Origin: Blautia luti
GTDB lineage: Bacteria > Bacillota > Clostridia > Lachnospirales > Lachnospiraceae
Reading direction: 5' to 3'
Length of the DNA: 64,000 nucleotides
Assembly: GCF_033096465.1 (NCBI RefSeq)
Contig: NZ_AP028156.1
Span: 3,614,501 to 3,678,500 of the forward strand
Below the pieces are notes generated by a model. The model saw only the letters and a list, made by a program, of their open reading frames with translations, made no database searches and was not told where the DNA came from. Both the position numbers and the translations under genes were made by a program. This document shows, piece after piece, positions 11,056 through 23,889 of this stretch (its first letter is position 1; each line of letters starts with the position of its first letter).

Positions 11056-12207
11056 TTACAGCATCTCAATCAGTGCCGCAATACGTGTATTAAGCTGTCC
11101 TATATCAGACTGGGAATAATCTGTCTCTACATGCAGATAAGGAATCTTCTTCTCTTCCCTCACAAATCTTCCAACTTTACCTGCCTCCACGTTATAAGTA
11201 TGACAGGCCTGCAAAGTCATCTCCACAACAGCTTCCACCTGATACTCGTCGATCAGCTCATTCAGCAGTTCAAAACGGTTCGGATTCGGAGTCATAACAG
11301 AACATCCGATATTCAGATAACGTCTTGCAATTGCCTCATAGATATCCGGGTCACTTTCATCAATGAGTCTGTCCACACTCTTCGCACCAGAGCAGTTTTC
11401 AAATGCAACTACCACTCCACCGTTTTCTTCAATGGCTTTTACCACTTTCATGGTAGCACCACCCATTGGACATCCGGTAATTAAGATACGATGTTTCTTA
11501 CCCTCATTCTTACCTGCTGCATATTCTTCTTTCACTTTCGCAGTCAGTGCATCAATCTCTGCCGGAACTTTGGAGCGGTCGAATTTGAAAGTAGTTCCAT
11601 ACAATACATTATAGAGATTCTCGCCCTTCATCGGTGCCGGATCCAGTTTCATCAATTCATAGAAATCTTTCAGTGCACGACGCCCTTCATTACTGATGCG
11701 AACCGCCTCGCGCAATTTCTCCTCTGTGATCTCCACCTCAAATTTCTTCTCCAGATATTCTTTGAATCGGATGATCTCACTCTTCCAGTACTGTAATGCA
11801 GCTTCTGTCTGCTTATGAGGAAGTTCCAGAATAAATACATCTTTAAATTCAGACATAAACTCATACATTTTCTTCTTTCCGTCGCAGGTAGTCTCACCAA
11901 CCACAACATCTGAGAAATAGAAGAATGGACATTTATCTGTCACTGCGAAACCATAACTTGCCTTGATCAGCGGACAGAGATTTTTCGGCAGTGTCTGCTC
12001 TGCTACAGGAATTGTCTCATCAGACATGGAACATAAACCTACAGAAGCAGCTCCCATTGCCATTGCAATCTCCTGTGGGAAATATGTACAGTAAGAACCA
12101 ATAACCGGAATATTCTGATCCTTGATCTTCTTGATGGCAAGAAATGAATTCTTCCTCTGTTCTGCAAACTCCTCAAATACCTCTGGTAACTCTTTAATTA
12201 CTTCCAT
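11056..12207 (-). CDS. Double-cubane-cluster anaerobic reductase (2-hydroxyacyl-CoA dehydratase-like)
   Basis: A 383-residue protein of the HgdB/BadD-like family. Conserved cysteines lie in GSYCTYFPQEI, VGLCSMSDE, KNLCPLIKAS, TDKCPFFYF, GETTCDGKKKMYE and in ITGCPMGG and TLQACHTYN, compatible with the double-cubane [8Fe-9S] protein described in Clostridia. Proteins of this class, when driven by an ATPase activator, carry out very low-potential reductions; the physiological substrate is unknown. The ATG at 12207 is preferred to an in-frame TTG 15 bases upstream, since GAGAGA lies at ribosome-site distance. Its activator is encoded directly upstream (12299-13060), forming a two-gene unit. Confidence 0.88.
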   Translation of the reverse strand: MEVIKELPEVFEEFAEQRKNSFLAIKKIKDQNIPVIGSYCTYFPQEIAMAMGAASVGLCSMSDETIPVAEQTLPKNLCPLIKASYGFAVTDKCPFFYFSDVVVGETTCDGKKKMYEFMSEFKDVFILELPHKQTEAALQYWKSEIIRFKEYLEKKFEVEITEEKLREAVRISNEGRRALKDFYELMKLDPAPMKGENLYNVLYGTTFKFDRSKVPAEIDALTAKVKEEYAAGKNEGKKHRILITGCPMGGATMKVVKAIEENGGVVVAFENCSGAKSVDRLIDESDPDIYEAIARRYLNIGCSVMTPNPNRFELLNELIDEYQVEAVVEMTLQACHTYNVEAGKVGRFVREEKKIPYLHVETDYSQSDIGQLNTRIAALIEML

Positions 12208-12298
12208 CTTTGTGTCTCTCAACTTTCTATATAGTTTTTATATTTTGATGTTTCAACCTTACTCCTACTGCTTTCGCATCATTTTCTACGATGTTCAT

Positions 12299-13060
12299 TT
12301 ATTTCTTTTTCTCTTTAGCAAGCAATGATGCTCCAAATGCTCCTGCATATCTTCCGTCTTTCATAGCTTCAACCATACATCCCAGATTCTCCGAAAGAAT
12401 CTCTACGAAATACGGACATTCACTCAGTCCCCCTGTAAGAATCACCGTCCCGGGAAGCTGCTTTCTCCTGGCAAGCTGTGCAACCTTTTCCGCCACAGAA
12501 TTTACTACTCCCGCAGCTATATCTTCTCTGCTTCGCCCCTCGCCGATCATACTGATCACCTCGGATTCCGCAAACACCGTACACAATGAACTGATCGGTA
12601 CCGCAGTTCCCTTCGCTGCCAGATCAAACAACTCCGCAATCGTAACTCCCAGTCGATTCGCCATAATCTCCAGAAACTTCCCGGTTCCTGCAGAACACTT
12701 ATCATTCATAAGAAAATCCTGGATCATTCCTTGCTTCACCAGGATCACTTTCGTATCCTGGCCACCTACATCAATGATCGCGCAGTCATTCCCCGCCATC
12801 TCTCTGCCACCTCTCCCATGACAGGTGATCTCTGTGATCACAAAATCCGCATAATCCACAGCCACACGCCCATATCCTGTAGCTGCTACACGAACTTCCT
12901 CACTCTTTACATCAATCCCTTCATCCAGAAGCCTTGATGCTATTTCCGATGCCGTTTCCTTACTGCTCCACCCTGTAGGCAGCACAAACTTTATTTCCCT
13001 GTCACCGGTTACAACTGTCTTCGAAGCAGTTGAACCGATATCAATTCCAACGTAATACAC
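12299..13060 (-). CDS. ATPase activator of the dehydratase-like reductase (HgdC/BadF family)
   Basis: A 253-residue ASKHA-fold ATPase. Signatures: phosphate-1 loop YVGIDIGSTASKTVV at the start, the invariant cluster motif NDKCSAGTGKFLEIMANRLG (about 125) where the Cys binds the dimer-bridging 4Fe-4S cluster, a second cluster-type Cys upstream in TEITCHGRG, DVGGQDTK (about 99) and the adenosine motif VILTGGLSECPYF (about 210). It is thought to inject electrons into the partner reductase with ATP hydrolysis. It is first in the operon with the double-cubane protein, with about 90 bases between them. Confidence 0.93.
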   Translation of the reverse strand: MYYVGIDIGSTASKTVVTGDREIKFVLPTGWSSKETASEIASRLLDEGIDVKSEEVRVAATGYGRVAVDYADFVITEITCHGRGGREMAGNDCAIIDVGGQDTKVILVKQGMIQDFLMNDKCSAGTGKFLEIMANRLGVTIAELFDLAAKGTAVPISSLCTVFAESEVISMIGEGRSREDIAAGVVNSVAEKVAQLARRKQLPGTVILTGGLSECPYFVEILSENLGCMVEAMKDGRYAGAFGASLLAKEKKK

Positions 13061-14687: not shown

Positions 14688-14724
14688 ATAAAAAAATAAG
14701 AAAGAATCCTGCTTACAGGATTCT
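14688..14724 (-). terminator. Second tandem terminator behind the dlt-like operon
   Basis: AGAATCCTG-ctta-CAGGATTCT (14703-14724) is a perfect 9-bp stem; on the minus strand it is followed by TTTCTTATTTTTTT. Confidence 0.7.
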
Positions 14725-14765
14725 CTGCCTGTGGTGGGCGCTTCAGCGACATAATTCCTCTTATA

Positions 14766-14816
14766 CAAAAAAGACCTTTATTCCAGACATCTCCCGGTAT
14801 CTGGAATAAAAGTCTT
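14766..14816 (-). terminator. Main terminator of the dlt-like operon
   Basis: AAGACCTTTATTCCAGA (14771-14787) pairs with TCTGGAATAAAAGTCTT (14800-14816) with one wobble, followed on the minus strand by TTTTTTG. It begins 20 bases after the carrier-protein gene. Confidence 0.9.
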
Positions 14817-14835: not shown

Positions 14836-15060
14836 TCAGCCTTTCAGTCTGCACACCATATCCCACAGTGCTTTCGCAGAATTGAAGTTCTCCGGAATGA
14901 TATCTGCCGGAGTAATCGTGATATCATAAGTATCCTGTAATTCACTTACGATAGACAGGATCGCGAAGGAATCAAGGATTCCGTCATCAATTAAAGTATC
15001 GCAGTTCTCAAAGTCTGCATCCGGCTGGATTTCTTCCAGAAGTTCGATTAATTCTTCCAT
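14836..15060 (-). CDS. dltC: DltC-like aminoacyl carrier protein
   Basis: A 74-residue acidic acyl-carrier protein. The phosphopantetheine-bearing serine lies in DDGILDSFAILSIV (Ser at about 36), with the Asp-Ser of the canonical LDSF motif. The length fits D-alanyl carrier proteins. It is the last gene of a five-gene operon, 22 bases after the PLP decarboxylase. In standard Dlt systems the carrier receives D-alanine from DltA and hands it to the MBOAT protein; here the decarboxylase next door raises the possibility that the cargo is altered on the carrier (inference). Confidence 0.88.
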   Translation of the reverse strand: MEELIELLEEIQPDADFENCDTLIDDGILDSFAILSIVSELQDTYDITITPADIIPENFNSAKALWDMVCRLKG

Positions 15061-15082
15061 TTCGTAATCTCCTTATCTGTTT

Positions 15083-16285
15083 TTATTTTTCTGAATTTAA
15101 AGTGTCTGTATGTATACCATCCCGCACCAGACGTAGTCCCTCTTCCTTCGTCCAGAAATAGATTCTCGGAAGCGGACGGCTTAAGAACAGATAAATTCCC
15201 TCTGTCACGGAATAAGCACCTACCCTTTCGAATACCAGTATATCATGGATCTTCGGTTTATGCAGTGGAAAACGCTTCACAACCACATCGCTTACTGTAC
15301 ATAAGGCACCGCACAGATTCCAGTTCTCCTCTTTCCCTTCTGTCTTCTCTGTTCCGTCAGGAGCAAGCTGTGTGCAGTAGGGCTGTTTCATCGCCATGGC
15401 CTGTCCATAATAATTCAGATGATTGATACCGCCATCCATAATGATATACGGCTGTTCTTTATTTACTTTCATATCTACAATAGAAGTAACATAATATCCG
15501 CAGGCTGCTGCCAGGAAACGTCCCATTTCAAGCACAATCCTGCTCTTGAATTCAAGCCCGTCAAGCAGTGTCCGGAACTCACCCAGCACAGCTTCCATTT
15601 CCTCTGCCTTATCCTTCTTAAAGTACGGTACAAAGAAGCCCGGACCATATTCCAGTACCTGCGCCTGAAAACCACTCTGCTCCTTCAGCTCTCCCATAAA
15701 TCCGTCCAGATGCTCCAGTTCCTCTTTCATCTGTGCCAGATCTTTCTTCTGTGTACCGGAATAGAACTGAAGTCCCTGAATTTCCACACCGCTGAAATCA
15801 TTTCTGTGTGAAATGATCCCACGGATCTCGTCTTCATCTACGCCGAACTGATTTCCGCTGGTAACACGGATCAGTACAGAAATCTTCATCCCCAGCTTCA
15901 TTGCAGTATCATTCAGGATATGCAGATGCTGCATGGATTCTACTGTATAAACACCTTTTCCTTTATAAGTGGAAAGTACGTACTCTATATCTTCCGGATT
16001 CTTATATACACCGGAAAGTACGATACGCTCCATAGGAACTCCCACACGCTCACAGATCCTGAATTCTCCAGGTGAACACACCTCGAAAGAAGGAACCACA
16101 TCCATCATGGGACCTGTCAGAAAAGGATTGGCCTTCATAGCATAACACAACTCTGCCTTTTCTCCAAGACAGCTGTGCACTTTTTCCACAAATTCTTTCA
16201 TCCTGTCCAGATCAAATACATAAGCTGGTGTAGGAGTCTTTTCTTTCTCGATCAATTCTTTGATAAATCCATATGCGGAACTCAT
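15083..16285 (-). CDS. Type III PLP-dependent decarboxylase (LysA/BtrK-like) inside a dlt-like operon
   Basis: A 400-residue alanine-racemase/ornithine-decarboxylase-fold enzyme. The PLP lysine lies in ELCYAMKANPFL (about 50), a phosphate-binding segment is seen in VLEYGPGFFVPYF (about 208), and the C-terminal active-site region reads GALCTVSDVV (about 327), where diaminopimelate decarboxylases usually carry CESGD. From memory, BtrK of butirosin biosynthesis, which decarboxylates glutamate bound to an acyl carrier protein, has a similar LCT..D pattern. The gene overlaps the adenylation gene by 4 bases (ATGA) and precedes the carrier gene, so its substrate is probably the free or carrier-bound amino acid of this operon. 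Plain diaminopimelate decarboxylase is the alternative. Confidence 0.8.
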   Translation of the reverse strand: MSSAYGFIKELIEKEKTPTPAYVFDLDRMKEFVEKVHSCLGEKAELCYAMKANPFLTGPMMDVVPSFEVCSPGEFRICERVGVPMERIVLSGVYKNPEDIEYVLSTYKGKGVYTVESMQHLHILNDTAMKLGMKISVLIRVTSGNQFGVDEDEIRGIISHRNDFSGVEIQGLQFYSGTQKKDLAQMKEELEHLDGFMGELKEQSGFQAQVLEYGPGFFVPYFKKDKAEEMEAVLGEFRTLLDGLEFKSRIVLEMGRFLAAACGYYVTSIVDMKVNKEQPYIIMDGGINHLNYYGQAMAMKQPYCTQLAPDGTEKTEGKEENWNLCGALCTVSDVVVKRFPLHKPKIHDILVFERVGAYSVTEGIYLFLSRPLPRIYFWTKEEGLRLVRDGIHTDTLNSEK

Positions 16286-17802
16286 TTGCCTTCCTCCTGA
16301 TACATTTCAGTAAGTGCTTTTCTGTCAATTTTGCCATTCTTTGTAAGAGGCATTCTTTCTACCTGTCTGAACACATTCGGTACCATAAATGCAGGTACAT
16401 ACTGTCCCAGTGCTCTCGCCAGGGGACGTCTTTCAATCTCGCCTTCATAGAAGGCCACGATCTTACTCTTCGCTGTGTCAAAAATACAGCAGCTTCTTAC
16501 AATCTCCGGAACCTTATCCATAGCTGCCTCGATCTCTCCCAGCTCGATCCTGTGTCCCATATGTTTGATCTGGAAATCTTTGCGCGTTGCGAAACACAGC
16601 TCACCCAGCTCATTGTAATAAGCCAGGTCACCGGTTCTGTACATAGGCTCCAGATATCTGTCATTCAGTGGATTCTGTACGAAAGCTTTCGCAGTCTGTT
16701 CCCTGTTCTTATAATATCCCAGAGCCAGGGCACTTCCGGATACACACAGTTCTCCGTTTTTATTCCTCTCTGTGATCAGCTTATCTTCCTCATCCAGAAG
16801 GAAAACTTTTTCATTAGGGAATGCCTTACCCATAGGAAGTACATCACCTGGCTGGAATTCTCTGTCTACAATGTAATAGGTACAGTTACAGGTGATCTCA
16901 GTTGGGCCGTAAATATTTACATACATTACATCCGGCAGATATTTTCTCCAGATATTCAGATGTTTCACGGGCATTGCCTCACCTGAGAAAAGGATCTTCT
17001 TAATATTATCCGGAACCTTATACTCGAAACCATTTAATGTGGAAATAATGCACAATGCTGATACTGCCCATACCAGAGTTGTTACTTCACGTTCGATCAG
17101 ATAATCGATCAGCTTCATAGGGAAGGAGAACAGCTGTCTCGGAACAATCTGTACTGTAGCTCCTGTTTTCAGTCCAGAATAAATGTCTTTAACAGATACA
17201 TCGAAATCCCACGGTGCCTGATTTCCCATTACATCCTTATCCGTAATGTCAAACAATTCTGTAAAGCAGTCAATGAAATCCAGTACCGATCTGTGTCCTA
17301 CTACAACTCCTTTCGGAACTCCTGTAGAACCGGATGTAAAAATTCCATACAGAGGATCTACATCCAGTGCCTGCTCACGGATAGCTTTCAGTACTTCCGG
17401 ATTCTCCGGTTCTGCTGCAAGTTCCGGTGCCATAAGTACTGTTCCGTGGAAGTCCAGCTTCTCCAGATCCTTTAAATATTTCTCAGAAGTAACGATCACA
17501 TCACTGTCCAGGATTCCCAGGATCTGCTGCAGTCTGCTTGCCGGCTGTTTGGTATCCATCAGTACATAGAAGCATCCCGCATAAACAGCTCCCATGAAGA
17601 TTCCAATTGTTTCTACACTCTTTTCCATAAATACCGGAACCGGATTTCTCGGAGTAAAATGTTTCGCCAGTGCAGTTCCTGTTCTTCTGGCAGTATTCTC
17701 AAGTTCGCTGAACGTACAGGATGTATTCTCATCTGCAAAAGCTGTTTTATCCGGATATTTCTTCGCTGATCCTTCCAGATATTCCAAAATACTTGTTTTC
17801 AT
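16282..17802 (-). CDS. DltA-like amino acid adenylation enzyme
   Basis: A 506-residue ANL-superfamily ligase that should activate an amino acid with ATP and load it on the carrier protein. Core motifs are visible: A3 IFTSGSTGVPKGVVVGH (about 152), A5 YGPTEITCNCTYY (about 291), A7 MYRTGDLAYY (about 383), A8 QIKHMGHRIELGEIE (about 410) and the catalytic A10 lysine in LTKNGKIDRKAL (about 490). Length and motif spacing fit DltA. The specificity pocket cannot be read reliably by eye, so D-alanine is likely but not proven. It is preceded by the SGNH gene (45-base gap) and overlaps the decarboxylase. Confidence 0.85.
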   Translation of the reverse strand: MKTSILEYLEGSAKKYPDKTAFADENTSCTFSELENTARRTGTALAKHFTPRNPVPVFMEKSVETIGIFMGAVYAGCFYVLMDTKQPASRLQQILGILDSDVIVTSEKYLKDLEKLDFHGTVLMAPELAAEPENPEVLKAIREQALDVDPLYGIFTSGSTGVPKGVVVGHRSVLDFIDCFTELFDITDKDVMGNQAPWDFDVSVKDIYSGLKTGATVQIVPRQLFSFPMKLIDYLIEREVTTLVWAVSALCIISTLNGFEYKVPDNIKKILFSGEAMPVKHLNIWRKYLPDVMYVNIYGPTEITCNCTYYIVDREFQPGDVLPMGKAFPNEKVFLLDEEDKLITERNKNGELCVSGSALALGYYKNREQTAKAFVQNPLNDRYLEPMYRTGDLAYYNELGELCFATRKDFQIKHMGHRIELGEIEAAMDKVPEIVRSCCIFDTAKSKIVAFYEGEIERRPLARALGQYVPAFMVPNVFRQVERMPLTKNGKIDRKALTEMYQEEGK

Positions 17803-17847
17803 AAAAATTCCTCCCTCCTGTTATAAAGCCTTGTTCTTCATCATTCG

Positions 17848-18816
17848 TTATTTACTTTCCAGTACCTGTGCAAGGACTTTGGAATAAGCTCTTGCAGCAT
17901 CACCGTTCATATGTCCGTCATAGTCTGTATAAGCTTTCAATTCATGTGTAAACGCTTTAAAATACTGTGTATTAAAGTTTACATATTCCACACCCTGTTC
18001 TTCAAAAAACTGTCCGAAGTATTTCCAGGCTGCATTATAATTATCACTGTAATCTCTCAGTGTATCAATCGGTATCGGAGTTGAAACTGCTACAAATTCA
18101 ATATCATTTGCCTTGCACAGCTCGATCAGTTTCTGAAGATATTCCATATTCTGCTGATTCACTTTACCTTCTTCATAGAGCTTGGGCTCAGATTTCTTCA
18201 GCTTCGTCACATCCACCGGATATCTTTCGATAAATCCACTCTCATGATATTCCTGTGTATCACTCTTTAAATGTGAAACATCATAATCCCCTGTGACCTT
18301 CTGTGTAAAGGTATCTTTCACCTTCGGAACTTCATAGCTCAGTGAATATTCATACCATGGAAACAGGATGGTACGGAAGTTACATTTGGCAATGGAATTC
18401 CAGAAATATTCCAGTTTTGCTTTGGAAAAAGGAAACTCATGATAGAACAGAAGATAGTTATTTCCTTCTTCTTTCTCTGTTACAAAATATCCAGGATCCA
18501 CTTCATAAATGATCCTCTTCGGATTCTGTTTCTCTTTGATCAGCTTGGTAAGATAATAAGCATCAATCCCGTATTCCCCACCTACGCACATGTTATGTCC
18601 GCTGCGGCCTGTAACTTCTTCCATTGTGTCAGGATCAATATCTGTCATTCCATGGGAAGTTCCCAGAATAATATCATCAAATTGCTGTGTTACAACTGTA
18701 TGTACATCGTTTCTCATAAACGTACACGGATAAAGTGCCAGATCCAGTCCCACAAGAAGGGCAATGCAGATCATCAGCACCAGGAACGTTTTTAATGTTT
18801 TCTTAAAATTGTGCAT
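17848..18816 (-). CDS. SGNH-like membrane-anchored protein in the DltD position
   Basis: A 322-residue protein with one N-terminal membrane anchor (about 8-28). The nucleophile motif is IILGTSHGMTDIDP (Ser near 54) and the late Asp-His pair lies in YDGHMNGDAARAY (about 301), giving the SGNH hydrolase/acyltransferase pattern. It occupies the place of DltD but is shorter than typical DltD proteins and shows only these block motifs, so it may be a distinct SGNH branch like those partnered with AlgI-type MBOAT proteins. It overlaps the MBOAT gene by 14 bases. It probably acts outside the membrane in the last transfer step. Confidence 0.75.
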   Translation of the reverse strand: MHNFKKTLKTFLVLMICIALLVGLDLALYPCTFMRNDVHTVVTQQFDDIILGTSHGMTDIDPDTMEEVTGRSGHNMCVGGEYGIDAYYLTKLIKEKQNPKRIIYEVDPGYFVTEKEEGNNYLLFYHEFPFSKAKLEYFWNSIAKCNFRTILFPWYEYSLSYEVPKVKDTFTQKVTGDYDVSHLKSDTQEYHESGFIERYPVDVTKLKKSEPKLYEEGKVNQQNMEYLQKLIELCKANDIEFVAVSTPIPIDTLRDYSDNYNAAWKYFGQFFEEQGVEYVNFNTQYFKAFTHELKAYTDYDGHMNGDAARAYSKVLAQVLESK

Positions 18817-20314
18817 AAATAAATCCTCTCGCTACTGCTGTTGATCCGAAGAAGCCAATGGATGCAAGCAGACAAAAATAAATGATCACTGTAACCGGCA
18901 GGCTCAGTCCTGAAAGTGTTTCTCTTATCTTCATGCCCCGTTCCTGAAGAACACTTACGATAAAGAGGATCACACATCCAACTGCCAGGATTGCCAGTGC
19001 ATAAGGGGTAAATGCTGTTCCTTCTTTTCCCGCCGGGATCAGGAGCAGCTGCGACGGAGTGAACTTCGTAACAGACAGTTTCATCATATGGAAAGCCTGT
19101 CCTACTGTATCCGCCCTGTCAAAGAACCAGCTGATATTTACCAGGATAAATGTACGGATGATCATAAACACATGATACCAGTTTTCTTTTCCTGTGATGT
19201 TCAGTTTCTTTTTCCAGTTTCTGTAGTTCTCTGCCATCAAGCCGCTAAATGCAATGATAATACCATTGTACATACCATAGACAATGTATTTCCATGCAGC
19301 TCCGTGCCACACACCTACTACGAAGAATACGATCAGGTTTGCCAGGCAGATCGGAAGAGTACGTCCGGTTTTTTTGCCGAAGACTTTCTTTCCCCATTTG
19401 CCAAATTTTCCCATCCATCTGGAAAGAGTGACCGGATAGAATACATAATCTTTCATCCAGGTACCAAGTGTGATATGCCAGCGATGCCAGAAATCCGTGA
19501 TGGAAATGGAGAAGAACGGACGCTTGAAGTTCTCATCCAGCTCAATCCCAAACATAGAGGCAATACCAATGACCACATCCATACCACCGGAGAAATCTGC
19601 ATACAGCTGAATGGTATAGAATAATACTCCGAAAAGTGCCAGACCGCTGTACTGATCCGGATTATCGAAGATCGCATCTACGAAAACTGCTGCCCAGTCT
19701 GCCAGGATCATCTTCTTAAAGAATCCCCACAAAATTCGTTCGAAACCTCTGGTAATATTTTTCCCCTCGAATTTATGCGGCTCATAGAGCTGATGGGCCA
19801 GACGGCTGTATCTGCCGATCGGTCCCTGCAGAATCTGTGGGAAAAAGGATACGAACAGCGCATATTTCACAGGATTCTTCTCTGCATCACAGCGCTTCCA
19901 GTATACATCCAGCAGATATCCGGAGGACTGGAAGGTGTAGAAAGAAATTCCCAGAGGAAGAAGGATCTCCATTCCTCTTAAATTCATGTGAAACAGCGCA
20001 TTCAGATTTTCTACAAAGAAATTTGTATATTTTACCACACCCAGCATACCGAAGTTCAGCACCAGTCCCAGAATCAGAAGATTACGGGCACTTTTCTGAC
20101 TTCCCTTGGTCTTCATTTTCTCAACGCCAAGCGCTACAAGCCAGGTAACCAGAGTGGAAAAAAGCAGGAATCCAACGTATTTCACGCCTCCTACCAGATA
20201 ATAAATGTAGCTGAAGCACAGAAGCACCAGCCACTGACATTTCTGTGGCACAATGTAATAAACCAGCACACTTGCTGCCACAAATAACAAAAACAGATTT
20301 GATACTAACGACAT
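18803..20314 (-). CDS. DltB/AlgI-like MBOAT acyltransferase
   Basis: A 503-residue membrane-bound O-acyltransferase with about eleven hydrophobic segments. The MBOAT features are the ISFYTFQSSGYLLDVYW segment (about 125), the DFWHRWHITLGTWMKDYVFYP region (about 277) and the invariant catalytic histidine in VVGVWHGAAWKYIVYG (about 330). It should accept the acyl group from the carrier protein and carry it through the membrane. It is the first gene of the five-gene dlt-like operon, translated from an ATG with a GGAGAG site. Whether the target is teichoic acid is inferred only from family knowledge. Confidence 0.9.
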   Translation of the reverse strand: MSLVSNLFLLFVAASVLVYYIVPQKCQWLVLLCFSYIYYLVGGVKYVGFLLFSTLVTWLVALGVEKMKTKGSQKSARNLLILGLVLNFGMLGVVKYTNFFVENLNALFHMNLRGMEILLPLGISFYTFQSSGYLLDVYWKRCDAEKNPVKYALFVSFFPQILQGPIGRYSRLAHQLYEPHKFEGKNITRGFERILWGFFKKMILADWAAVFVDAIFDNPDQYSGLALFGVLFYTIQLYADFSGGMDVVIGIASMFGIELDENFKRPFFSISITDFWHRWHITLGTWMKDYVFYPVTLSRWMGKFGKWGKKVFGKKTGRTLPICLANLIVFFVVGVWHGAAWKYIVYGMYNGIIIAFSGLMAENYRNWKKKLNITGKENWYHVFMIIRTFILVNISWFFDRADTVGQAFHMMKLSVTKFTPSQLLLIPAGKEGTAFTPYALAILAVGCVILFIVSVLQERGMKIRETLSGLSLPVTVIIYFCLLASIGFFGSTAVARGFIYAQF

Positions 20315-20341
20315 GATATTTTTCTCTCCTGAACCTAAACA

Positions 20342-20373
20342 GGTTGCTGCACTAATTGCTTAATGCAGCAACC
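20342..20373. promoter_or_regulatory. Strong hairpin in the dlt-like operon leader
   Basis: GGTTGCTGCA (20342-20351) and TGCAGCAACC (20364-20373) form a perfect 10-bp stem with a 12-base loop about 30 bases upstream of the MBOAT start. No T-run follows on the minus strand, so it may be a leader structure or an operator rather than a terminator. Confidence 0.45.
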
Positions 20374-20445
20374 CCTGTCTTTTAACAATTATATAACCGA
20401 ATCAGAATCACTTTTTCTGGTTCAGTTTTGAATGTCATTCCGGGC

Positions 20446-21369: not shown

Positions 21370-22101
21370 TTAGTTTAAACGTTTGTAATCAATATATTTC
21401 AGAGTTTTTGGTGCACCATATTTTAATTTATATCCATTCAGTTTATATTCCTTCTGGAAATTCGGATCATATACATAAGTAGTTCCTTTATAATCAATCT
21501 CTACCCATGCATGTGCACCCTTACCAGATGATTTCTTAAAATATCCTTTTACATAATGTGCATCACTTCCGGATACCTTCGCCATCCAGTAGAATGTAGC
21601 TGCCATAACATAGCAGTCACCTCTCTGTCTCTGGAAACCATAGATTCCGTAATTTCCCGGTGTTTTCTTTGCAACTTTTACATTGGCTGTATACGGAATG
21701 GAAGCACTCCAGTTAAATGCTTTCTTTAAATTTCCTCCGTACATATCCAGTCGTGTTGCTGCAAGAGTTTCTACCTGATTCATCTTTTTCGCTTTGCCCT
21801 TGGAATTAATCTTGTAGTAAACATTCTTTACTTTCTTATATACGACTTTACCCGTTACATCGAAGTGATATTTCACTTTACTGATAGTTTTGGTAACATT
21901 TGTTACTTTCTTACCGTTTACATAATAGTACTTCTTTGAAGAATCCCAGCCGTTCTTCTTGGACGCTGTAGCACTTGATACAGCGATATCTTCGGCATTT
22001 TCAACGCTGTGAACTGTTGTCTCGGAAGCCACGATCGGAGCTGCCGGTGTAAATGCCATTACTGTACTGAGCATTAAAGCTGTTAACTTTTTTCTGTTCA
22101 T
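21370..22101 (-). CDS. Secreted transglutaminase-like protein
   Basis: A 243-residue secreted protein. After a signal peptide (1-26) come short repeats around YYYVNGKKVTNV and YYKINSKGKAKKM, similar to glycine/aromatic cell-wall-binding units. The C-terminal half has a transglutaminase-like triad: Cys in RGDCYVMAATFYWMA (about 163), His in KGAHAWVEIDY (about 198) and Asp in TYVYDPNFQ (about 213). Such domains act as cysteine proteases, peptidases or cross-linkers at the wall. It is the third of three related secreted genes, with 20-60 base gaps on each side, likely cotranscribed. Confidence 0.8.
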   Translation of the reverse strand: MNRKKLTALMLSTVMAFTPAAPIVASETTVHSVENAEDIAVSSATASKKNGWDSSKKYYYVNGKKVTNVTKTISKVKYHFDVTGKVVYKKVKNVYYKINSKGKAKKMNQVETLAATRLDMYGGNLKKAFNWSASIPYTANVKVAKKTPGNYGIYGFQRQRGDCYVMAATFYWMAKVSGSDAHYVKGYFKKSSGKGAHAWVEIDYKGTTYVYDPNFQKEYKLNGYKLKYGAPKTLKYIDYKRLN

Positions 22102-22120
22102 TCTGATTTCCTCTCCTTTT

Positions 22121-22816
22121 CTATCTCCATCTAGTTATAACACTCTCTACCACTTCTGCACTGCTGCCCTCTCCATATGGACGGAACATATTTAACTCGA
22201 TATTTGCATAAGTATAGGTTACATCCCATCCGTTTCCACCCAGGAAGCAGCTTTGTTTACTGATCTTTACTTTTTTTACCTGTTTTCCAAGCAGTTTTTT
22301 CAGCTTTACCGCATTCTGCTGATATTTTGTGGCATTCTTCTGGTACTTTTTACGATCAGGAACAGCTGTATAGGTTCTGTATACTTTGGACTTGGCCTGA
22401 TTATACGCACCTGTCTTGGTATCAAAATAATACAGAATCGCTCTGCCATATGGTTTAGTGCTTGCCATATGGAAACCAGTTACTCTGTGTCCGTATACAT
22501 CGAATCCATAATATTTGTTATCAATCTTCTTAATCACAATACCATATCTTCCCTGGAAATCCTTATCTGCCTGATAAGCTGCTCCATTCTTCTGGAAATA
22601 ATAGATACATCCGGAAGAAGATTTTCCCCACTGGTTTTTAATCATCTTACCTTTTGCATTATAACCGTAACGTTTGCCTGATTTGGTTTTTACCTGTTTC
22701 ACAGCTGTCATTTTTGTGGCAGCCTGTACAGTAACTGCCTGCTGATCTGAGATAACCGGAGTCAGCATCATGAGCAGACAAAGCATTACTGCAAATAACT
22801 TTTTGAATTTCTTCAT
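22121..22816 (-). CDS. Secreted protein with wall-binding-like repeats
   Basis: A 231-residue protein with a signal peptide (MKKFKKLFAVMLCLLMMLTP, cleavage near QAA-TK). Residues about 40-125 hold repeat units (RYGYNAKGKMIKNQW, YYFQKNGAAYQADK, KYYGFDVYGHRVTGF) resembling choline/cell-wall-binding repeats. The C-terminus, about 150-231, is lysine-rich and ends with a short strand-like region (GWDVTYTYANIELNMFRPYG). No catalytic Cys-His-Asp set is seen, unlike both neighbours, although it has a single Cys near 190. It lies 16 bases from the gene before it and 20 from the one after. Confidence 0.75.
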   Translation of the reverse strand: MKKFKKLFAVMLCLLMMLTPVISDQQAVTVQAATKMTAVKQVKTKSGKRYGYNAKGKMIKNQWGKSSSGCIYYFQKNGAAYQADKDFQGRYGIVIKKIDNKYYGFDVYGHRVTGFHMASTKPYGRAILYYFDTKTGAYNQAKSKVYRTYTAVPDRKKYQKNATKYQQNAVKLKKLLGKQVKKVKISKQSCFLGGNGWDVTYTYANIELNMFRPYGEGSSAEVVESVITRWR

Positions 22817-22831
22817 TTTTTCTCTCCTCTT

Positions 22832-23812
22832 TTAAAATTTTATTCTGTGTTCCACTGTATAAGCAGGACGTGAAGCTGCACCAAACAGCGTTCCATACAT
22901 GTTATCATAATAAAGCCCATTGATCATTACGAAACTGTGTCCGTCCGGAATGGTGATCACGTATGGCTGATAGCCCAGCTCCTTCGCAATGGCAGCTACG
23001 CAGCTTGCAATTCCATAACAGTTTCCTGTCAGCCCTGTCCGGAACATCTGTAATGCATATTTATACACCCAGTTCTTCGTCTTGAATTCCTGAGGTGTGG
23101 GGTCCATATATCCTACGAAATTGGTATATGCCATGATATAACGGAAACAGGAACGGAATTTCTCATAATTGCTTGCTCCCGCATTGCTGTGCTGTGCGAT
23201 AAAGCTTCTAGCTGCAAATTTACACTGTACCTGTGTCATATTTGTGGCATATCCGTTCTTATTAAACTTAATGCCCTCCACTGTAGTACCTGCAGCACAC
23301 TTTCCTCTCTTATCAGCATAGTACATTTTACCATTTAGCTCACGCCATCCTGTAAGCGCTCTTCCCCTGGCATTTACCAGGTATTTCACTTTGTTTACAG
23401 TTACAACGGCTGTTTTACCAGGCTCAACCCTCTGGGCCTTTTCATTGAAAACATAAAATACGCCTCTGACTTTATATGGGCCGTCATGAGCAGCAACTGT
23501 ATTGGACTTAAACCAGTAATGCTTTCCATTTACCGTTTTCCAGGTGCTTGTGACCCTTTTGTTTTTTACATAGTAGCGATAAACTCTGCCCTCTTTTACC
23601 AGACCTTTTTTCACAGGTTTGGGAGTTGGCTTGGGCTTCGCTGTTGGCTTCGGCGTGATCGTAGGTTTGGGAACTATTGTGGTTTCCAGTTCAGGTGTTA
23701 AAGCAGCCGACTGTGCTGCGCTGATGCTCACACCGCCTGTACCCAGTATAAGGGTCAATGCACATACTGCCAGACCAAGTTTCCAGGGAACAAATCTGCT
23801 CTTCTTTTTCAT
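22832..23812 (-). CDS. Secreted transglutaminase-like protein with wall-binding repeats
   Basis: A 326-residue protein starting at the ATG of MKKKSRFVPWKLGLA, chosen because AAAGGA lies 8 bases upstream; a longer form would start before any ribosome site. It has a signal peptide, a Pro/Thr/Lys linker (PKPTITPKPTAKPKPTPKP), repeat units such as HYWFKSNTVAA and MYYADKRGKCAAG (about 75-185), then a transglutaminase-like domain with Cys in TGNCYGIASCVAAIAKELG (about 272) and His in IPDGHSFVMING (about 295). It heads the minus-strand envelope cluster, with a good promoter at 23890-23917. Confidence 0.8.
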   Translation of the reverse strand: MKKKSRFVPWKLGLAVCALTLILGTGGVSISAAQSAALTPELETTIVPKPTITPKPTAKPKPTPKPVKKGLVKEGRVYRYYVKNKRVTSTWKTVNGKHYWFKSNTVAAHDGPYKVRGVFYVFNEKAQRVEPGKTAVVTVNKVKYLVNARGRALTGWRELNGKMYYADKRGKCAAGTTVEGIKFNKNGYATNMTQVQCKFAARSFIAQHSNAGASNYEKFRSCFRYIMAYTNFVGYMDPTPQEFKTKNWVYKYALQMFRTGLTGNCYGIASCVAAIAKELGYQPYVITIPDGHSFVMINGLYYDNMYGTLFGAASRPAYTVEHRIKF

Positions 23813-23889
23813 TCTCATTTTCCTTTCATATCCACTGCAGAACTGCCCGGATATTCTGGTTCTCCTTTCCATTTTTATAAAACAATTAT

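Follow-up and report, generated by a model that had tools for sequence, protein, structure and literature searches.

A stretch of 64,000 nucleotides from the genome of Blautia luti (assembly GCF_033096465.1, contig NZ_AP028156.1, positions 3,614,501 to 3,678,500; hereafter, the window) contains, on the minus strand at 14836-20314, a compact cluster of genes for a membrane-bound O-acyltransferase (MBOAT), an SGNH-type protein, a DltA-like adenylating ligase (A), a fold type III pyridoxal phosphate (PLP)-dependent decarboxylase (DEC) and a carrier protein (ACP). We propose, with about evenly balanced confidence, that this cluster could encode a self-contained surface aminoacylation system in which L-aspartate would be loaded onto the carrier, decarboxylated there to a beta-alanyl group and transferred to a surface polymer. 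The cluster was brought to attention by a note made from the sequence alone (hereafter, the original prediction), which had proposed a dlt-like operon with a built-in decarboxylase; the gene coordinates confirm the five genes and their tight spacing as described there, neighboring genes overlapping by 14 and 4 bases or lying 45 and 22 bases apart. The five-gene arrangement is not due to chance because it recurs in many genomes.

A relative of DEC (E <= 1e-30) is present in 89 of the 397 genomes of the same family, the B. luti genome included. The set of 92 loci that was compared consists of 89 neighborhoods from other genomes (one genome contributing two), two further loci (L038 and L039) and the window; a scan of genome contigs yielded only three loci. 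The complete set of five genes, on one strand and within 7 kb, is found in 67 of the 92 loci, so the neighborhood is conserved beyond this strain, a point on which the original prediction had made its case depend. In L064 and L070, the set spans 7.2-7.9 kb and DEC is fused to a longer protein; in L086 and L121, part of the set is on the opposite strand; and 16 of the remaining 21 loci, some of which are on short contigs, have neither MBOAT nor SGNH nearby. The DEC gene immediately follows that of A in 77 of the 89 loci that have A, the most common gene order being A-DEC-ACP-MBOAT-SGNH (41 loci), followed by MBOAT-SGNH-A-DEC-ACP (14 loci, including the window). For the 17 loci without MBOAT beside DEC, the genomes of nine were searched with the window MBOAT: all nine have a match, eight of them of the module type (at least 590 bits with a custom profile) and the ninth at 317 bits; an unrelated MBOAT of the B. 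luti genome (L130) scores 385 bits with the same profile. An SGNH gene lies within 1.5 kb on either side of the unlinked module-type MBOAT in six of the eight cases, and the loading genes and transfer genes thus tend to co-occur even if unlinked. A phylum-wide draw of 398 genomes produced matches (E <= 1e-40) in four, namely, the B. luti genome, one from the same family and two from other families, both of which hold the full five-gene set. The module is centered on the Lachnospiraceae and patchy inside the genus, where another Blautia record (L039) encodes a DEC that is 73% identical to that of the window. Replacement of the canonical dlt operon by the module is not supported: among 18 genomes with a dltA match of at least 428 bits, five (G082, G090, G388, G152 and G383) also carry the module, the chance expectation being 18 x 89 / 397 = 4.

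The decarboxylase (15083..16285, minus strand, 400 aa) matches PF02784 and PF00278 and, in addition, PF01168, the N domain of alanine racemase. The PLP-binding Lys51 is conserved in all 92 loci, and Cys329 and Asp333 are conserved in 91 each. Among the curated NCBIfam models, the best match is TIGR03099, the exosortase A-associated decarboxylase (178.4 bits, cut-off 478.45), with LysA next (152.8 bits, cut-off 297.9). Residues 326-333 read GALCTVSD, as originally noted, and alignment with 2j66 confirms that BtrK has a similar LCT..D motif, which sets the wider group that includes DEC, BtrK and SbnH apart from LysA, with its CE..D. More telling, on sequence comparison, are two segments that DEC, by eye, has in common with BtrK, namely, a Tyr or Phe before [ST]-GTQ and DGG..H with a G[QR] stretch that replaces the RP of LysA. 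The cysteine that corresponds to Cys329 is conserved among AR-fold PLP-dependent decarboxylases and is the catalytic base in ODC, according to a published study (PMC7857480).

Two trees place DEC apart from LysA. In a quick tree of 108 rows with SH-aLRT support, a single group (94) takes in 92 of the 93 DEC-locus rows; the exception, L128 in genome G108, joins BtrK (89) and is apparently a separate, BtrK-like locus. This locus also has carrier and ligase matches and perhaps represents a butirosin-like cluster in the same family. In a second tree of 40 rows with bootstraps, all 24 sampled module DECs form a single clade (100/100) that lies among BtrK, VinO-like, exosortase-type and siderophore enzymes, with the seven LysA-type rows, including the LysA-like protein of the B. 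luti genome, on one side of a branch (100/99). The predicted structure of DEC has a mean pLDDT of 62.9, with a poor C-terminal part; the fold matches of this model, itself of modest confidence, that name an enzyme are decarboxylases (best 50 of 239, E <= 0.001), with SbnH at rank 1 and BtrK at rank 22.

The ligase (16282..17802, minus strand, 506 aa) contains an AMP-binding domain (1e-56) and scores 278.2 bits with the DltA model TIGR01734 (cut-off 559.85) and 286.7 bits with NF003417 (cut-off 476). Its pocket consists of D199, D201, V202, K205, W245, L271, S273, I297, C305 and N306, together with K491; the codon of Lys205, the basic residue of the pocket, is at 17188..17190 on the minus strand, as calculated from the gene start. 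We aligned by motif the pockets of 87 module-locus ligases longer than 450 aa and 30 comparison rows. The assignment of the pocket columns to published A-domain positions is provisional, and W245 may be off by one. The pattern D201 V202 K205 W245 x271 S273 x297 C305 N306 is present in 76 of the 87 ligases, and position 205 is basic in 85 (Lys in 79, Arg in 6); the two exceptions, L120 and L128, both belong to the VinN-like/exosortase-type ligase clade, although the DEC of L120 falls inside the module group of the quick tree, where its branch is long. Position 273 is Ser in 83 of the 87, compared with Cys in all 18 canonical dltA rows (L133-L150) and in 26 of the 30 comparison rows; this Cys, which precedes GE, we take to be a D-alanine pocket feature of DltA. 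Canonical dltA genes of the same family mostly have the pocket D L M S L C T V A. The module pocket, which the original prediction had suggested comparing with DltA, is thus, judging from these alignments, unlike that of the D-alanine ligase. Some glutamate-activating A domains have Lys at the equivalent of position 239.

Asp199 is retained in 77 of the 81 subtype 1 and other ligases and in all six ligases of subtype 2 (L066, L088, L106, L109, L113 and L129), which have the pocket I-A-R-W-C-S-Q-A-S and the gene order A-ACP-DEC. In the ligase tree, the module A proteins fall with other DltA-like ligases of the same family, apart from the VinN-like and exosortase-type ligases (100/98). Given that the DEC lineage is found elsewhere beside VinN-type ligases and here beside a DltA-like ligase, DEC and A come from different partnerships. 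No second DltA-like ligase was detected in the B. luti genome at E <= 1e-20.

Under the mechanism that we propose, the first step would be the adenylation by A of an amino acid that is small and acidic. The most likely substrate would be L-aspartate, activated at the side-chain carboxylate while Lys205 binds the other one, and A would then load the activated amino acid onto Ser31 of ACP. DEC would take off the alpha-carboxylate on the carrier, converting beta-aspartyl-ACP to beta-alanyl-ACP (with glutamate, the product would be GABA-ACP), after which MBOAT would carry the omega-aminoacyl group through the membrane and, together with the SGNH protein, would attach it as an ester to a polymer of the cell surface, for example, lipoteichoic acid. 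A substrate with its second carboxylate intact suits a basic pocket, which argues for decarboxylation after loading. We regard decarboxylation on the carrier as probable. If it does occur there, aspartate is a slight favorite as the substrate and glutamate is a doubtful one. The component of the scheme in which we have the most confidence is the formation of an ester on a surface polymer, which is quite likely.

Additional indications on the substrate come from sister ligases. From 40 hand-picked further DltA-like loci that are not beside DEC, 39 pocket codes were obtained. Ten of these read DAKW[AC]GLGM, with Lys205 present, and in all ten loci, the gene that immediately precedes A encodes a member of the aspartate racemase family; an aspartate-type racemase was found in none of the 29 other coded loci and in none of the 92 DEC loci, within the stretch fetched. 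Two of the racemases were tested and score 205 bits with TIGR00035 (asp_race; cut-off 93) and 203.8-204.6 bits with the model of the cysteate racemase CuyB (cut-off 190), compared with 34.3-38.2 bits with the glutamate racemase model TIGR00067 (cut-off 146.65). The location of these Lys205 ligases next to an aspartate-type racemase points to an acidic, aspartate-sized amino acid in that group, and the lack of a racemase beside the module ligases suggests that the latter use the L form. The racemase-type loci (L213, L216-L221, L224, L239 and L241), in nine of which the carrier, MBOAT and SGNH genes come after the ligase, possibly encode a D-aspartyl decoration system.

Several observations weigh against the aspartate to beta-alanyl scheme. 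Nine of the 19 Lys205 loci away from DEC have no racemase; Lys205, being present in 19 of the 39 coded loci away from DEC, was rejected as a marker of decarboxylation; and the module code itself, DVKW..S.CN, is found in seven of the 39 without DEC beside it, so the substrate of the ligase need not be decarboxylated. The six subtype 2 ligases have Ile in place of Asp201, which implies that the modules do not all act on one substrate and that subtype 2 probably uses a different one. The LCT..D motif, which the original prediction had used as an argument for a carrier-bound substrate, is also present in SbnH and in the siderophore-locus enzymes L186 and L187; it is therefore no evidence for such a substrate, and we rejected it as a marker. 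The nearest partner of DEC in the tree, the VinO-like pair, is supported at only 83/87, and the match of DEC to PF01168 is above the cut-off (36.9 vs 24.1 bits), which is why we retain a function as racemase among the alternatives. Finally, the module DEC is found in none of the eight other genomes of the same genus, four of which are 81-86% complete.

Among the alternatives, the closest is one in which glutamate is loaded via its gamma-carboxylate and decarboxylated to GABA-ACP, as by BtrK, such that the surface receives 4-aminobutyryl esters. We consider it unlikely, although it is the foremost of the rivals: GABA thioesters are prone to cyclization, and one group of Lys205 sister ligases adjoins an aspartate-type racemase, the two such racemases tested scoring far below the glutamate racemase cut-off. 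On the other side, Lys205 suits glutamate as well as aspartate, and BtrK, a relative of DEC in the tree, is reported to act on glutamyl-BtrI (PMC7857480). The basic pocket and the aspartate-type racemase of the sister loci fit aspartate and a beta-alanyl product at least as well as GABA, the product favored in the original prediction; what stands of that interpretation is a conserved dlt-like module with its own non-LysA decarboxylase related to BtrK, whereas the motif argument and GABA as the best guess do not. The proposal that the group ends up on a lipid, a glycan or a secreted small molecule rather than on teichoic acid is also improbable, somewhat more so than GABA: an exosortase-type parallel sits among glycosyltransferase genes and the sister locus L153 encodes, by eye, a chain-length-type polysaccharide protein, but the module combines a DltB-like MBOAT with an SGNH protein, and a sulfatase-domain protein that looks LtaS-like is encoded in the same genome.

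Still less probable is that DEC is a racemase or acts on a free amino acid before A loads the product. The only named relative among 120 listed (P0081) is called alanine racemase, in line with the PF01168 match; however, DEC has the decarboxylase Cys329 and the C-terminal sheet domain PF00278, the enzymes named among its fold matches (best 50 of 239, from the modest model) are decarboxylases, and a basic pocket would be poorly suited to an already decarboxylated substrate. It is quite improbable that aspartate is loaded via the alpha-carboxylate and loses its beta-carboxylate to DEC, a route that would yield alanyl-ACP and alanyl esters without a free D-alanine step. Such a route would agree with the conservation in subtype 1 of Asp201, which usually binds the alpha-amino group, and with a DltB-like transferase that accepts the product, but subtype 2 lacks Asp201, and beta-decarboxylation is not known for this PLP fold. 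That DEC is a housekeeping diaminopimelate decarboxylase that chanced into a dlt-like operon is hardly credible: its 152.8 bits with the LysA model are well below the cut-off, it has CT where LysA has the CE of CE..D, the RP pair of LysA is absent, the B. luti genome encodes another LysA-like gene, and the tree position rejects the identification, in keeping with the separation from LysA on which the original prediction had staked its reading.

The beta-alanyl scheme combines features of several known systems. Like the dlt operon, the module encodes a ligase, a carrier, an MBOAT with a His pair and an SGNH-type protein, and the carrier has the modification Ser; it differs in the extra decarboxylase, in the pocket (DVKW..S.CN in 76 of the 87 ligases vs mostly DLMSLCTVA in canonical dltA), in scores below the Dlt cut-offs and in the lack of a DltD domain in the B. 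luti genome. For the butirosin system, BtrJ/BtrI/BtrK, no MBOAT or SGNH partner is known; its decarboxylase belongs to the same subfamily as DEC and has the Y-[ST]-GTQ and DGG..H segments in common with it. BtrK differs in working in antibiotic synthesis, where it decarboxylates BtrI-S-glutamate (PMC7857480). The VinN/VinO-type systems resemble the module in that the adenylating enzyme adjoins a type III decarboxylase, VinO-like enzymes being the nearest neighbors of DEC in the tree (83/87), and differ in that the VinN-like ligases belong to the other clade (100/98) and have a late-pocket Arg that is absent from the module ligases. VinN/VinO provide beta-amino acid starter loading in macrolactam synthesis, with VinN loading methylaspartate by the side-chain carboxylate; the VinO-like comparison locus L184 lies with genes for a methylaspartate mutase and a polyketide synthase. 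The exosortase A-associated pair TIGR03098/TIGR03099 has the same order of ligase, decarboxylase and carrier, but the module scores far below the cut-offs (173.3 bits vs 592.35 for TIGR03098 and 178.4 vs 478.45 for TIGR03099), the exosortase-associated ligase belongs to the other clade, and no MBOAT or SGNH is annotated in the 13 kb read. A Sinorhizobium locus with glycosyltransferases, an exosortase-type parallel, has the A-DEC-ACP order as well. Thus, loading with decarboxylation has precedents, and so does dlt transfer; for an operon that combines the two, no description was found in the literature searched, judged by titles and the openings of abstracts, and this is a weak negative.

The transfer half of the module is recognizable by its residues. 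The DltB-like MBOAT (18803..20314, minus strand, 503 aa, C-terminus FIYAQF) matches PF03062 (5.7e-21) and scores 179.7 bits with the DltB model (cut-off 375). His280 and His337, in the pairs W279-H280 and W336-H337, are each kept in 74 of the 75 module MBOATs; matched by motif rather than structure, these pairs correspond to Trp288-His289 and Trp335-His336 of DltB (PMC11035591). The SGNH/GDSL-like protein of the window (17848..18816, minus strand, 322 aa) has no Pfam match, and its structure model has a mean pLDDT of 43.6; Lipase_GDSL_2 (PF13472) is matched by 12 of 36 proteins scanned, which comprise the window protein and roughly half of the 74 family members. Of these 74, 71 have Ser54, 66 have Asp298 and 72 have His302. 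The carrier (14836..15060, minus strand, 74 aa) matches PF00550 at 21.9 bits, barely over the cut-off of 20.8, and its phosphopantetheine Ser31, in LDSFAIL, is kept in 88 of 88. The best NCBIfam matches, all under the cut-offs, are DltB for MBOAT, amino acid adenylation domains and DltA for A, and DltC for ACP. No match to DltD (PF04914) was found in the B. luti genome, with B. subtilis and L. lactis positive as controls. One sulfatase-domain protein of this genome (676 aa) resembles LtaS by eye, which makes lipoteichoic acid a possible acceptor.

Some sister clusters carry other enzymes in the position that DEC occupies, between ligase and carrier, as expected for on-carrier tailoring. A gene with a formyltransferase domain match lies between A and ACP in L207 (5322-6185), L214 (5306-6178) and L240 (2925-3803), and a formyltransferase-like gene is in the same slot in L237 (5477-6331); in L206, a relative of the formyltransferase-domain gene is located after ACP, and L211, L228 and L232 show none. 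An N-formylated aminoacyl group is a possible product of the formyltransferase-slot operons. The slot is occupied by a GNAT-domain gene in L202 and L233 and by a similar-looking gene, by eye, in L236. These arrangements can be read as a single chassis with exchangeable tailoring enzymes. Extending this reading, we tentatively propose, as a plausible but uncertain generalization, that dlt-like systems for decorating the surface with acidic amino acids form a modular family in the Lachnospiraceae, in which a ligase-carrier-MBOAT-SGNH chassis combined with an exchangeable decarboxylase, formyltransferase or acetyltransferase, or with an aspartate-type racemase, would write beta-alanyl, formyl-aspartyl and D-aspartyl esters, among others, on the surface of gut bacteria.

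Among the amino acid ester modifications of Gram-positive walls, D-alanylation is the best known; it determines surface charge, resistance to peptides and recognition by the immune system. A widespread family of gut bacteria seems to have a parallel system that uses a different amino acid and decarboxylates it on the carrier. If so, a new surface chemistry is predicted on common gut bacteria, and proteins that general models place near DltA and alanine racemase would be assigned a function; the ligase code and the slot enzymes yield predictions that can be tested genome by genome, and three soluble proteins (A, ACP and DEC) would make a simple assay set.

The operon is flanked by terminator-like hairpins on the minus strand, one of 15 pairs upstream (20341..20374) and, downstream, one of 19 pairs with a T tail (14771..14816) and another of 11 pairs (14701..14726). 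These are matches from a pattern scan only, which found eight such sites in the region compared to 3.9 (sd 2.1) in shuffled sequences, and are compatible with a single transcription unit. No constant extra gene was seen adjoining the operon, the neighbors varying between loci. The most common neighbor is an OmpR-type response regulator, which accounts for 13-14 of the 61 downstream neighbors scanned and immediately follows the operon in the same orientation, and any response regulator is present within 7 kb in 26 of the 92 loci; in one example (L103:12521-13237), a kinase-like gene follows the regulator. In the window, 11056-13060 encodes, judged by eye alone, a 2-hydroxyacyl-CoA dehydratase-type subunit and its activase. 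Upstream and on the same strand, at 21370-23872, there are genes for three proteins with signal-like N-termini, one with a PF01841 transglutaminase core and one with weak matches to choline-binding repeats. Transglutaminases as partners were seen, with no systematic search made, in the window, in a few similar neighbors and in two fusions, L064:6713-10057 and L070:5741-8560, in which DEC is followed by a membrane segment and, by eye, a C-terminal secreted transglutaminase-type domain.

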